Assembly (NCBI RefSeq): GCF_009696275.1
Contig: NZ_VUMI01000006.1
Location: 1 to 64,000, forward strand
DNA: 64,000 nucleotides
Direction of reading: 5' to 3'
Source: Eisenbergiella porci
GTDB lineage: Bacteria; Bacillota; Clostridia; Lachnospirales; Lachnospiraceae
Of this stretch, positions 57,389-60,410 are shown piece after piece; the first letter of the stretch is position 1, and each line of letters opens with the position of its first letter. A model generated the notes under the pieces. That model saw only the letters and a program-made list of their open reading frames with translations, did not search any database and had not been told where the DNA came from. The position numbers and the translations under genes are program-made.

Positions 57389-58231
57389 CTACCATTTCCG
57401 GCGATATTCCAACGGCGTCATATTTTCCGCCTTTTTAAACACCTTAATAAAATATCCCGCGTCCGCAAATCCGCACAACAACGCGATTTCTTCAATAGAG
57501 CTGTCCGAAAAACGAAGCAGTGACTTGGCATGGGAAATCCGCCGCCCCGTCAAATCACTCCCAATCGTAATCCCATACTTCTTCTTATATTCCCTGGAAA
57601 GATGATATTTACTAATAAAAAAAAGCCCCGACAGCTCCTCCAGAGATATTTTTTCCTGATAATGCTCCTCCAGGTACTTTCTCACCTGCATCAGCTTCGG
57701 AGAAAGCTCCCTTCCCTCCCCGGCCTCAGCCCTGTTTTCCAGAAAACAAAGCGTAATCAAATCCGTAAGATATTTATGCGCGCTCAGCTCCATCAAAGAA
57801 GGCTTCTCCTGCATCAAACCGAAAAGGTCGGTTAAACTATCCGTAAAGGCCGCGGCATTGGCCGGATGAAAAATCGATCCCCGATCCTGTTCCTGATAAG
57901 CCTTATAAAAATCATCCGCCCCATTCCCGTTAAAATGCACCCACATCAAAGTCCACGGATGCTCCGCCGTACTTTCGTGGGCATACTGGTTCCGGCAGTT
58001 GATATACACACAATCCCCCGCCCGGATAAAATGCTTCTTCCCCCGGTAAGTCAGATATCCTTCCCCCTGAATTACCGTCAGAAAAAGATAAGAACTGATA
58101 TTTTCCCTGGAGCTGATATGCGGCTCCATACTCGTCAGCGTCCCGATCTCCTGCACATAAAGATAATGCTGCCTTGCATAAGCAGAAGGCGTCGCCAACA
58201 CACGATCCGACAAAGACTTCCCCATAACCAT
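57389..58231 (-). CDS. AraC-family transcriptional regulator
   Basis: A 280-residue cytoplasmic regulator. The N-terminal cupin (about 25-150, FLTVIQGEGYLTYRGKKHFI, CVYINCRNQYAHES) senses an effector. Two HTHs follow: ISLEELSGLFFISKYHLSREYKKKYG and IEEIALLCGFADAGYFIKVFKKAE. Perfect AGGAGG before the ATG. It lies upstream of the DUF6020-like gene in the same direction (98 nt apart), and its 5' side faces the giant hairpins. Confidence 0.9.
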   Translation of the reverse strand: MVMGKSLSDRVLATPSAYARQHYLYVQEIGTLTSMEPHISSRENISSYLFLTVIQGEGYLTYRGKKHFIRAGDCVYINCRNQYAHESTAEHPWTLMWVHFNGNGADDFYKAYQEQDRGSIFHPANAAAFTDSLTDLFGLMQEKPSLMELSAHKYLTDLITLCFLENRAEAGEGRELSPKLMQVRKYLEEHYQEKISLEELSGLFFISKYHLSREYKKKYGITIGSDLTGRRISHAKSLLRFSDSSIEEIALLCGFADAGYFIKVFKKAENMTPLEYRRKW

Positions 58232-58257: not shown

Positions 58258-58703
58258 CTTTGAGGTGAGTATCGGTTTCCCGGGCGCCTTCCCGGGCGGG
58301 GGTGAGGGGATGGTGTGTGGGCCGGGTGGGGACATGGGGCTGGGGGAGGGCTGTTTCTGCTGCGGCCTCTGTTCCCGGTCCCTGTTCTGTGCGGTCGAAC
58401 TCAAAAATGGGGGATTCCTAACTGTTTCTTTTTCCCGCAGCCAGTCTGGTCGGCTTGAACTCCTCGCAGACGACTGGCGTCGTCTGTTCGTCAGACAAAG
58501 CCTCCCGGGCAGACTGGCTGCGGAAAAAAGAAACAGTAAGGAATCTCACCATTTTTTCGTGACTCCCTTACAGAATCAGGGACCGGAAACAGAGGCCGCA
58601 GCAGAAACAGCCCTCCCCCAGCCCCATGTCCCCGCCCGGCCCACACACCATCCCCTCACCCCCGCCCGGGAAGGCGCCCGGGAAACCGATACTCACCTCA
58701 AAG
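58258..58703. repeat. Giant hairpin element, copy 1 (446 nt)
   Basis: The 5' arm from 58258 (CTTTGAGGTGAGTATCGG...) is complementary to the 3' arm ending at 58703 (...CCGATACTCACCTCAAAG) over about 130 bp, with only wobble pairs and a one-base bulge. Inside lies a 185-nt core (58387-58571) that on the - strand matches copy 2 with about 19 differences. The core has its own stem, the apical closing pair GGCTT/AAGCC and the inner hairpin CAGACGAC-GCCA-GTCGTCTG. Open frames across it are by-products of high GC and show no codon-like conservation. Nature unknown: foldback mobile element, structured RNA or strong insulator. Confidence 0.9.
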
Positions 58704-58872
58704 CCCACTACATTACGCAGTCCGTAAGGTTAAAAAGATAAAAGACAAAAAATAAAGGACTAAAAAACAAATGATAAAAGATTAAAAACCAAGGTACACT
58801 TTCGCTAAAGAAACTTTTTCCATATTACTATCGATTGCTTTATTCTGCTGGGCTATTGAGAAGGAACTTGGC
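58704..58872. other. A-rich spacer between the giant hairpins
   Basis: From 58730 to 58795 irregular A-rich repeats occur (variants of ATAAAAGAYTAAAAA). The rest is AT-rich without a gene. The two flanking cores are inverted relative to each other, so this segment could in principle be flipped by recombination. Confidence 0.5.
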
Positions 58873-59171
58873 GCCCTGTGGCGGCGGGGGGTTTGGGGGC
58901 GGGAGGAAGGCGGGGGCGGCGGGCTGGTCTGCAAGGGAGTCGCGAAAAAATGGTGAGATTCCTTACTGCTGCTTTTTCCCGGAAACGGTCTGCCCGGGAG
59001 GCTTTGTCTGACGAACAGACGACGCCAGTCGTCTGCGAGGAGTTCAAGCCGACCAGACCGTTTCCGGGAAAAAGCAACAGTTAGGAATCCCCCATTTTTA
59101 AGCCCGACCGCGAAGACCAGCCCGCCGCCTCCGCCTTCCTCCCGCCCCCAAACCCCCCGCCGCCACAGGGC
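58873..59171. repeat. Giant hairpin element, copy 2 (299 nt)
   Basis: The outer arm from 58873 (GCCCTGTGGCGGCGGGG...) pairs with the arm ending at 59171 over about 60 bp with one G.T wobble. It is unrelated in sequence to the arms of copy 1. The core (58931-59115) is the same as in copy 1 but in opposite orientation. The apical ~58 nt (from CCCGGGAGGCTTTGTC to GTTCAAGCCGACCAGAC) are identical in both copies. Stem bases that differ do so in complementary pairs. Confidence 0.9.
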
Positions 59172-59260
59172 TCACAATTCCTCCCTCAACAACCCTCCTA
59201 CATTATAAAGCAATCCCCACCAGATAGCAATATATTACTATTTGTGGGCAAGATAGTAAA

Positions 59261-59345: not shown

Positions 59346-60410
59346 ATGAATAACGTTGCATTGATTACAGGGATTAACGGGCAGGATGGTTCTTATCTTG
59401 CGGAGTTTTTATTGGAGAAGGGGTATGAGGTGCATGGCCTGGTGAGGCGTCACAGTATTTCTGTTACCAGCAGGATTGACCATCTGATTCATTCCCCCTA
59501 TAATAATGTTAAATTCTTTCTTCATTATGCGGACACGACGGATTCCAGCGGACTGATGCGGCTGATGGCGGAAATCAAGCCTACCGAAGTGTATAACCTG
59601 GCGGCGCAGTCTCATGTTGGTATTTCCTTTGAGGTCCCGGAATATACGGCGGATGCTACAGGAATGAGTACGCTGAAGCTTTTGGAGGCCATTCGGATCA
59701 ATGGGGGGCCGTGCCGTTTTTATCAGGCGTCTACCTCCGAGCTGTTCGGCGGGCTGCCGGAGACGGCTCCCCAGAGTGAGAAAACGCCTTTTTATCCCAA
59801 GAGCCCTTATGGTGTGGCGAAGCTGTATTCTTACTGGATTACGGTGAATTACAGGGAGTCTTATAATATGTTCACCTGTAACGGGATTCTGTTTAATCAT
59901 GAATCACCCAGAAGGGGCGAGAATTTCGTTACCAGGAAGATTACGCTGGCCATTGCCAATATTCTGGCAGGAAAGCAGGAGAAGCTTTCCCTGGGGAATA
60001 TGAATGCCAAGAGGGACTGGGGCTTTGCAGGGGATTATGTGGAAGGTATGTGGCTGATGCTGCAGCAGGATAAGCCGGGGGATTATGTGCTGTCTACGAA
60101 TGAAACCCATACGGTAAGAGAATTTGCGGAGGCGGCTTTCCAGGAGGTGGGCATTACTGTCCGCTGGGAAGGGACCGGGGTGAATGAAAAGGGTTATGAT
60201 TCCCGGACCGGCAGGCTGCTTGTGGACGTAAATCCTGAATTTTACCGTCCGGCGGAGGTGGAGTTCCTCTGGGGAGATTGTTCCAAGGCGGAGAAAGAAC
60301 TGAACTGGAAGAGAAAAGTGGATTTTAAAGGCCTTGTGGCTATGATGATGGATGCGGATATGCAGGCCGTTGTCGGCGTGGGCTGTGAGGAATTTAAAAA
60401 CAGAAAGTAG
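59346..60410 (+). CDS. gmd: GDP-mannose 4,6-dehydratase
   Basis: First step from GDP-mannose to GDP-L-fucose. 354 residues, SDR fold: NADP motif [41 protein letters not shown], catalytic Ser/Thr in [19 protein letters not shown] (YxxxK) and [16 protein letters not shown], typical of Gmd. AGAGAGG precedes the ATG. Followed after 6 nt by a membrane protein and then fcl, with manC further on: a complete GDP-fucose route. Confidence 0.97.

Follow-up and report, generated by a model that had tools for sequence, protein, structure and literature searches.

Genomic context of the two giant hairpins

The window, a 64,000-nucleotide (64-kb) stretch of the Eisenbergiella porci genome, contains two giant hairpins, copies 1 and 2, which lie 5′ end to 5′ end between genes coding for an AraC-type regulator (araC) and a GDP-mannose 4,6-dehydratase (GMD). 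The hairpins are the only long inverted repeats in the window at the thresholds used. Throughout, + denotes the orientation of copy 2, in which the apical motif TGTCTGACGA...GAGGAGTT lies on the + strand of the window, and copy 1 has the same orientation on the - strand. Genomes and loci are referred to by G and L numbers, with G000 denoting E. porci itself. The following features can be distinguished:

57389..58231, - strand: neighbouring gene for an AraC-type regulator, starting 27 nt away from copy 1
58258..58703, - strand: copy 1, entire giant hairpin (446 nt; inverted-repeat search and folding)
58258..58384, no strand: copy 1 outer arm (127 nt, 98% complementary to 58577-58703)
58382..58574, - strand: copy 1 conserved core (90% identity with the copy 2 core)
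58458..58497, - strand: copy 1 apical motif TGTCTGACGA...GAGGAGTT
58537..58540, - strand: CTTA half of the copy 1 CTTA/TTAG site, with a U-U mismatch (partner TTAG at 58418-58421)
58577..58703, no strand: copy 1 outer arm, partner of 58258-58384 (inverted-repeat search)
58704..58861, no strand: A+T-rich spacer separating the two divergent copies
58862..59182, + strand: copy 2, entire giant hairpin (321 nt; weaker pairing extends to approximately 58833-59215)
58862..58930, no strand: copy 2 outer arm (69 nt, 93% complementary to 59114-59182)
58928..59120, + strand: copy 2 conserved core (90% identity with the copy 1 core)
58962..58965, + strand: CTTA half of the copy 2 CTTA/TTAG site (partner TTAG at 59081-59084)
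59005..59044, + strand: copy 2 apical motif TGTCTGACGA...GAGGAGTT
59114..59182, no strand: copy 2 outer arm, partner of 58862-58930 (inverted-repeat search)
59346..60410, + strand: flanking GMD gene

Copies 1 and 2 fold with energies of -421.7 and -260.7, against means of -178.8 and -133.3 for their shuffled sequences (z: -38.0 and -20.7, respectively), and none of 100 shuffles was as good in either case. The outer arms of the two copies are unrelated, and the core is common to both. The original prediction of about 19 differences among 185 core positions (58387-58571 on the - strand and 58931-59115 on the + strand) proved to be exact, with 19 differences in a gap-free alignment. The stem letters which it quoted, the four changes on one arm that are matched on the opposite arm, and the identity of the apical region between the two copies were all confirmed.

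Distribution of the hairpin family

Further copies of the core were found in the E. porci genome by BLAST, while the exact motif pattern occurs at 21 places in this genome and at none in a reversed control. A covariance model built from 19 copies returned 78 rows in this genome, which reduce to at least 42 distinct places when a palindrome matched on both strands is counted once, a lower bound in that 150 of 1481 first-look candidates were scored. Among 61 genomes, for each of which 45 candidates were scored under stricter filters, the model matched four (E. porci included), all of the same genus, with 44, 43, 10 and 3 matches; the 43 matches are those of Eisenbergiella tayi. Distant relatives are missed by this model, as G036 is unmatched among the 61 genomes, yet carries five matches to a looser pattern.

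A pattern scan of a named genome collection identified 28 stretches, 21 of them in E. tayi DSM 26961, three in Candidatus Cryptobacteroides onthequi (Bacteroidales), one in an uncultured Lachnospiraceae MAG and three elsewhere. The matches in an Acidobacteria MAG, Rubripirellula and Methylolobus have no long hairpin around the motif and were taken as chance. The Cryptobacteroides element forms, by eye, a hairpin of approximately 230 nt, and a 184-nt query against this genome gave 37 matches, ten of which are near full length at 89-100% identity. The looser pattern was found in nine of 397 Lachnospiraceae genomes (E. porci included; 26, 16, 7, 5, 3 and 3 copies and three singletons; two reversed-control matches) and ten of 393 Bacteroidales genomes (10, 6 and 5 copies and seven singletons; one reversed-control match). 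Three of the singletons (G364, G380 and G428) and six of the seven in Bacteroidales were taken as chance, without folding; the remaining Bacteroidales singleton, in G663, looks related by its letters, but its hairpin measures just 65 nt. The distribution is thus patchy, with three or more copies in 6/397 Lachnospiraceae and 3/393 Bacteroidales genomes (9/790 sampled). Hairpins of at least 160 nt surround the motif at 17/20 places in one folded set and 8/12 in another, the remainder showing a short, poor or no fold.

No matches were found in a viral collection with two patterns, nor in phages and plasmids with the window core by blastn. The only hit at threshold in the window against Rfam 15 is a tRNA, with the hairpins giving no match, and further Rfam scans listed only microRNA, CRISPR-repeat, lncRNA and IRES models below their gathering scores. 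The earlier view that the loop belongs to no named RNA family is supported in that the hairpins reach no Rfam gathering score, and the conserved loop motif was confirmed. No description of the family was found in a literature search of partial coverage, which took in few subscription papers and the accessible parts of PMC11109978, PMC3733652 and PMC6006769. The two hairpins thus belong to a large family of non-coding elements that is apparently previously undescribed, and the case in which no further copies would exist anywhere is contradicted by those in the E. porci genome, other Lachnospiraceae and Bacteroidales.

Architecture of the element

Each element is a near-perfect palindrome with an asymmetric core, 289-489 bp in length (median 362.5; 80 measured Eisenbergiella copies). 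The outer arms show no relation between copies and are ~97% complementary within a copy. Moving inward, they are followed by an internal loop beside an A-run/T-run helix, a helix containing the CTTA/TTAG site with its U-U mismatch, a variable helix, and a loop in which GCCCTTA or GCCCGGGA faces GTT or GACC. Beyond a short helix comes the internal loop TGTCTGACGA/GAGGAGTT, and the structure is closed by an apical hairpin whose length varies. Within the internal loop, GACGA opposite GAGGA can form G-A, A-G, C-G, G-A and A-G pairs, and in a diverged copy (L012:1206-1363) the central C-G is swapped to G-C (CTGAGGA...GACGAGTTC). Several genomes have an apical loop of their own, e.g. G202 (GCTTGC), G036 (GGCGAAGCC) and G336 (ACGAAGT).

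Regular expressions applied to 86 unique cores, drawn from the best 150 of 183 model matches, show that GACGA...GAGGAG is kept in 79 and CTTA/TTAG in 78. Among the eight exceptions to the latter, L009 keeps the mismatch in changed letters, L030 has lost the 5′ half, and in six the mismatch has become a perfect pair, through copying of the right arm to the left in L012, L104, L125 and L126 and in the opposite direction in L066 and L122. A paired CTTA/TTAG was found for 57/62 motifs in G000 and E. tayi, 3/4 in G336, 3/3 in G200, 4/5 in G036, 2/3 in G011 and 4/4 in G002, and for neither of the two motifs in G202. Its distance to the apical motif is near-constant across six groups, at 39-46 nt on the 5′ side and 39-44 nt on the 3′ side. 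For G000 and E. tayi, the values are 43-46 nt from CTTA to the motif and 39-42 nt from the motif to the end of TTAG, the respective distances being 40 and 43 nt in G336 and G200, 40 and 42 nt in G036, and 39-40 and 43-44 nt in G011 and G002.

Truncated, core-deleted and mini versions of the element also exist (L030; L136, L152). Several E. tayi copies (L114, L116, L120 and L123-L126) carry a small hairpin such as AGCGACTAAAGTCGCT inserted in the loop TGT-[..]-CGACGA. At paired positions, the 5′ outer arm is A-poor and T-rich (A 355 and T 982 in G000; A 426 and T 1066 in E. tayi), the 3′ arm therefore being the reverse.

Insertion sites and apparent mobility

The elements appear to be mobile, based on an empty-site comparison at two loci. 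At L054, the conserved flanks are 464 nt apart in E. porci, where the element lies 8 nt past a TAG stop codon, compared to 85 nt in E. tayi. GTAG is present without an element at this locus in E. tayi and in G012, and the G004 gene ends in TGA, with no GTAG. The araC-GMD interval has no element in G002, G003 and G011, one in E. tayi, and an unrelated giant hairpin in G012. The exact junction is unreadable at both empty sites, as the flanks have diverged.

Flank pairs of the same copy match at 6.40 of 9 positions, compared to 6.38 for crossed pairs (p 0.44, n=80), and as such no target-site duplication accompanies insertion in these copies; L026 had looked convincing in this regard, but the 80-copy comparison showed no excess likeness. 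The ends carry tags which are enriched approximately tenfold, yet a minority of copies have them. For CTAC, 20/80 copies carry the tag no more than 18 nt from the right end (background windows: 0-3 of 78-79), leaving 60/80 without it, and for CTRCC the number within 18 nt of the left end is 27/80 (background: 2-5 of 80). Copies 1 and 2 of the window have no CTAC within this distance of the right end. The CTAC tags cluster 3-14 nt from the hairpin foot, away from the foot itself, and read on the opposite strand the arrangement is GTAG, a G-rich stretch, the hairpin and GYAG. Left ends have CCA in front of them (A 59%, C 62%, C 55%), and behind right ends comes a tail of some ten nucleotides that is rich in C and poor in G.

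In 25/80 copies, a convergent open frame (at least 80 codons) has its stop codon within 16 nt of the right end, and in 7/80 within 16 nt of the left end. The stop at the right end is TAG in 15/25 cases, compared to 42/327 other open frames (p 2e-7), the latter being frames of at least 150 codons from the same loci and possibly including spurious ones; the cases are not all independent, given that L089 and L104 are orthologues. Insertion at GTAG would leave a TAG-ending gene intact, which would explain both the position of right ends at stops and the TAG excess.

Among the copies listed, six close pairs in G000 (less than approximately 600 nt apart; the window, C13, C65, C73, C79 and C95) all point apart (- then +). 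G makes up just 9-16% of the motif strand over ~280 nt upstream of the 80 Eisenbergiella copies, and on the right it rises to at least 21% beyond 60 nt. Three copies occur within 5 kb in a cassette-like arrangement at L311 (G656, Bacteroidales), alternating by eye with HipA/Xre-type and GNAT/DUF1778-type toxin-antitoxin-like genes and a type I restriction subunit. A gene-cassette reading derived from G656 was not upheld at the Eisenbergiella locus L054, where the gene is present without the element in relatives.

Covariation and the maintenance of arm pairing

The original prediction regarded compensated change around an invariant loop as a hallmark of selected RNA or ssDNA structure, and held that many dispersed copies with significant covariation would support a new family. 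Dispersed copies with strong covariation were indeed found: in an alignment of 19 copies 96.5% of 1058 cells pair and 37/56 pairs change on both sides, a value which none of 500 shuffles reaches. The reading of this compensation as a hallmark of selected RNA structure found no support. A total of 161 cells are changed on both sides vs 16 on one side, so that G-U intermediates are nearly missing; two alignment positions are themselves mostly G-U. Isolated mispairs in the outer arms number 67 against 3775 Watson-Crick pairs in G000 and 69 against 4006 in E. tayi, from 83 cores (86 less three dropped beforehand), three of which, with fewer than 30 pairs, are excluded from the sums. When these isolated mismatches are typed on the motif strand, leaving aside clustered ones (171 in G000 and 93 in E. 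tayi), A-C exceeds G-U by 32 to 20 in G000 (p 0.13) and 43 to 14 in E. tayi (p 0.00015), or 75 to 34 when pooled, the reverse of what selection for motif-strand RNA pairing predicts. Across 18 loci of other genomes the two are equal (A-C 18, G-U 19), with no A-C excess. Wobble tolerance on the opposite strand, or strand-biased mutation, would fit the excess.

Copying of one arm onto the other was observed in both directions. Furthermore, at three loci where an element is found in both E. porci and E. tayi (window/L077, L089/L104 and L092/L072), with flanking matches 72-86% identical, the cores can be aligned but the outer arms for the most part cannot, and each copy retains nearly perfect arms (0-12 mismatches to 79-97 pairs). 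This divergence of arms with retained pairing fits template switching between inverted repeats, a known process according to the accessible parts of PMC8604942 and PMC7202029. The rarity of one-sided intermediates, the A-C excess and the copying of arms both ways thus suggest that much of the covariation reflects DNA-level homogenisation of inverted repeats. The conserved core mismatches are a better sign of selection, since arm copying would erase them, yet approximately nine in ten copies keep them. The target of selection therefore looks to be the asymmetric core that resists homogenisation, and its mismatched loops rather than its stems. As such, the family separates two things which are usually confused, covariation through DNA copying and true structural selection as seen in conserved mismatches.

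The same data bear on whether the hairpins are a structured RNA, acting as a leader, in a 3′-UTR or in trans, which is multi-copy by chance and whose arms are double-stranded RNA under selection for pairing. Such an RNA would account for the strong covariation, the near-constant spacing between two non-Watson-Crick motifs, the possible tandem G-A pairs with the C-G to G-C swap within the motif of L012, the 3′-UTR position of right ends after 25 stop codons, and the divergent orientation of the six close pairs. It is, however, at odds with the near lack of one-sided intermediates and with the motif-strand excess of A-C over G-U in G000 and E. tayi, which the other genomes do not show. Furthermore, a crude ORF call places 25/86 copies in intervals between divergent genes, out of reach of transcription from either neighbour, and promoter-like boxes of several downstream genes are located, by eye, beyond the element (e.g. 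L102 and L097). We thus consider a structured RNA unlikely. Regulation as a 5′-leader, suggested by the location of copy 1 27 nt before araC and copy 2 before GMD, was dropped as the main reading on account of these promoter-like boxes and the frequent location of right ends at the stops of opposing genes.

Proposed mode of mobility and comparison with known systems

We favor, with about even confidence, a reading of the hairpins as non-autonomous mobile giant palindromes whose folded strand is recognised by a candidate trans-acting enzyme. This enzyme would recognise the core as a folded single strand, through the GACGA/GAGGAG loop and the CTTA/TTAG site ~40 nt down the stem, and would insert the element at GTAG-like sites, as IS200/REP elements do; on this basis the palindromes would work like a REP/IS200-type element. 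The outer arms would need only to pair, and their sequence could drift, with complementarity restored when one arm is copied onto the other during replication by template switching, and selection would preserve the mismatched core. Weighing against this reading are the statistical nature of the tags, the comparison of empty sites at two loci with diverged flanks, the TGA ending without GTAG in G004, the equal A-C and G-U counts in other genomes, and the results on Y1 genes given below. Moreover, the core is kept in elements at loci that two species have in common, so that it could serve the host.

Actual membership of the REP/RAYT (REPtron) or IS200/IS605 systems, with palindromes moved by a Y1 HUH transposase, is distinctly improbable. 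The elements resemble the GTAG-tagged REP palindromes, as these are described in the accessible parts of PMC3733652 and PMC6006769, in being multi-copy, mostly extragenic and palindromic, with mismatches in the stem and, in a minority of copies, a GTAG/GYAG-like tag near the hairpin. The same GTAG/GYAG-type tag variants are described for REPs in the available portion of PMC3733652, and insertion without target-site duplication (n=80) is shared with IS200/IS605. The elements are, however, far longer, at 289-489 nt against 20-65 nt for REPs (20-40 bp in that portion of PMC3733652), their CTAC tags lie 3-14 nt from the foot rather than at it, and they have two asymmetric loops at a near-fixed distance. 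The GTAG tags had suggested a RAYT/Y1 mover, but gene presence fails to bear this out: PF01797 (Y1) was not found in 7/11 element-bearing genomes, some of which are drafts, and a model built from G000 only detected no family core in 11 Y1 loci, of which ten are from carriers. Membership thus fails on two of the features tested, size and transposase.

MITEs and PATEs (IS200-derived palindromic elements) are short non-autonomous mobile elements with terminal inverted repeats. Like MITEs, the elements are non-coding, apparently mobile (from two loci) and have terminal inverted repeats; they differ from MITEs and PATEs in that their arms are mostly unrelated between copies, with the core conserved instead, and in that no parent was noticed. 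A search with the end sequences found places in 7/7 genomes, and no autonomous parent was noticed in short stretches (~220 nt per match) of 20 end-match regions, which contain solo ends, a mini and a core-deleted palindrome, and coding sequence. Integron attC sites recombine as folded single strands, with a conserved structure and an arm sequence that is free to vary. The elements share the latter two features and, as proposed here, the folded-strand site, but they are much longer, their shared motif does not, by eye, match the attC boxes, and no cassette arrays were noticed in Eisenbergiella. Template-switch correction of quasipalindromes, as covered in the accessible parts of PMC7202029 and PMC8604942, explains how arms turn into copies of each other; it is, however, a mutational process that yields no family and leaves the conserved mismatches unexplained.

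A host chromosomal binding or insulation site, e.g. for a nucleoid, topology or termination protein, would agree with the location of elements directly past stop codons and with the maintenance of the core against homogenisation at the loci shared with E. tayi (window/L077, L089/L104 and L092/L072). The sites nevertheless differ between species and the family is patchy among the sampled genomes, making this explanation quite doubtful. A single recent duplication followed by random change without function, compatible with the 90% identity of the two window cores, is refuted by the dozens of additional copies, the cross-genus and cross-phylum relatives and the conserved mismatches, and its probability is next to nil.

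Other giant-hairpin families

In the scanned loci, which are mostly from Eisenbergiella and mostly chosen for the presence of an element, 101 long inverted repeats were found, 88 of which contain the motif. Six of the 13 motif-less repeats belong to other families of the same build, six are at places where the model finds the family core with a changed motif, and the remaining one is L087:1677-1785. A second family (CCGGTCCTTAG/CTTAGTACCGCTGCG, core CGCCGGTCCTTAG...AGTACCGCTGCG) is represented by five distinct pattern matches, one of which is also L107, and a variant identified by eye in L073. Its core, read as CGCCGGTCCTTAG..stem..CTTAGTACCGCTGCGTTTTTA.CCGAGCGAAAGCG, has an apical stem that covaries, and the arms are unrelated. 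Rfam scans of four loci (L057, L073, L085 and L107) gave no match up to E 0.01. A third family, with the core GATGAGCC...TCTCATC, has two matches, and its letters read GATGAGCC..GGGC ... TCTCATCTCCAT. The loci are:

Second family: L057:2208-2572, L073:2764-2993, L085:2269-2553, L107:1521-1839; also L170, L172 and L173
Third family: L061:1016-1267, L244:1181-1448

The G012 copy of the third family is located at the same araC-GMD site as the window elements, which looks like an insertion hot spot. As these families share the same build and have distinct cores, giant palindromes may constitute a class of their own. More tentatively, and with less confidence than we place in the mobility of the hairpins themselves, the three families with separate cores could represent a new class of mobile DNA, with the GACGA/GAGGAG family spanning Bacillota and Bacteroidota. 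Members of this class would move as folded single strands through an enzyme unlike the known Y1 transposases, and would be restored to perfect palindromes when one arm is copied from the other. The family poses a clean problem, namely which enzyme or protein reads the core in two phyla, and the close copy pairs and cross-species loci make this question testable.

In bacteria, near-perfect palindromes this large are usually considered unstable. An SbcD-like protein (TIGR00619) scores above the cut-off in all eight Lachnospiraceae carriers tested; among three Bacteroidales carriers, two have matches below the cut-off only and G656 has no match. Loss of the SbcCD nuclease is thus ruled out as the reason for palindrome survival in the Lachnospiraceae carriers, and approximately 40 giant palindromes persist in each of two Eisenbergiella genomes that also have the SbcD-like gene.
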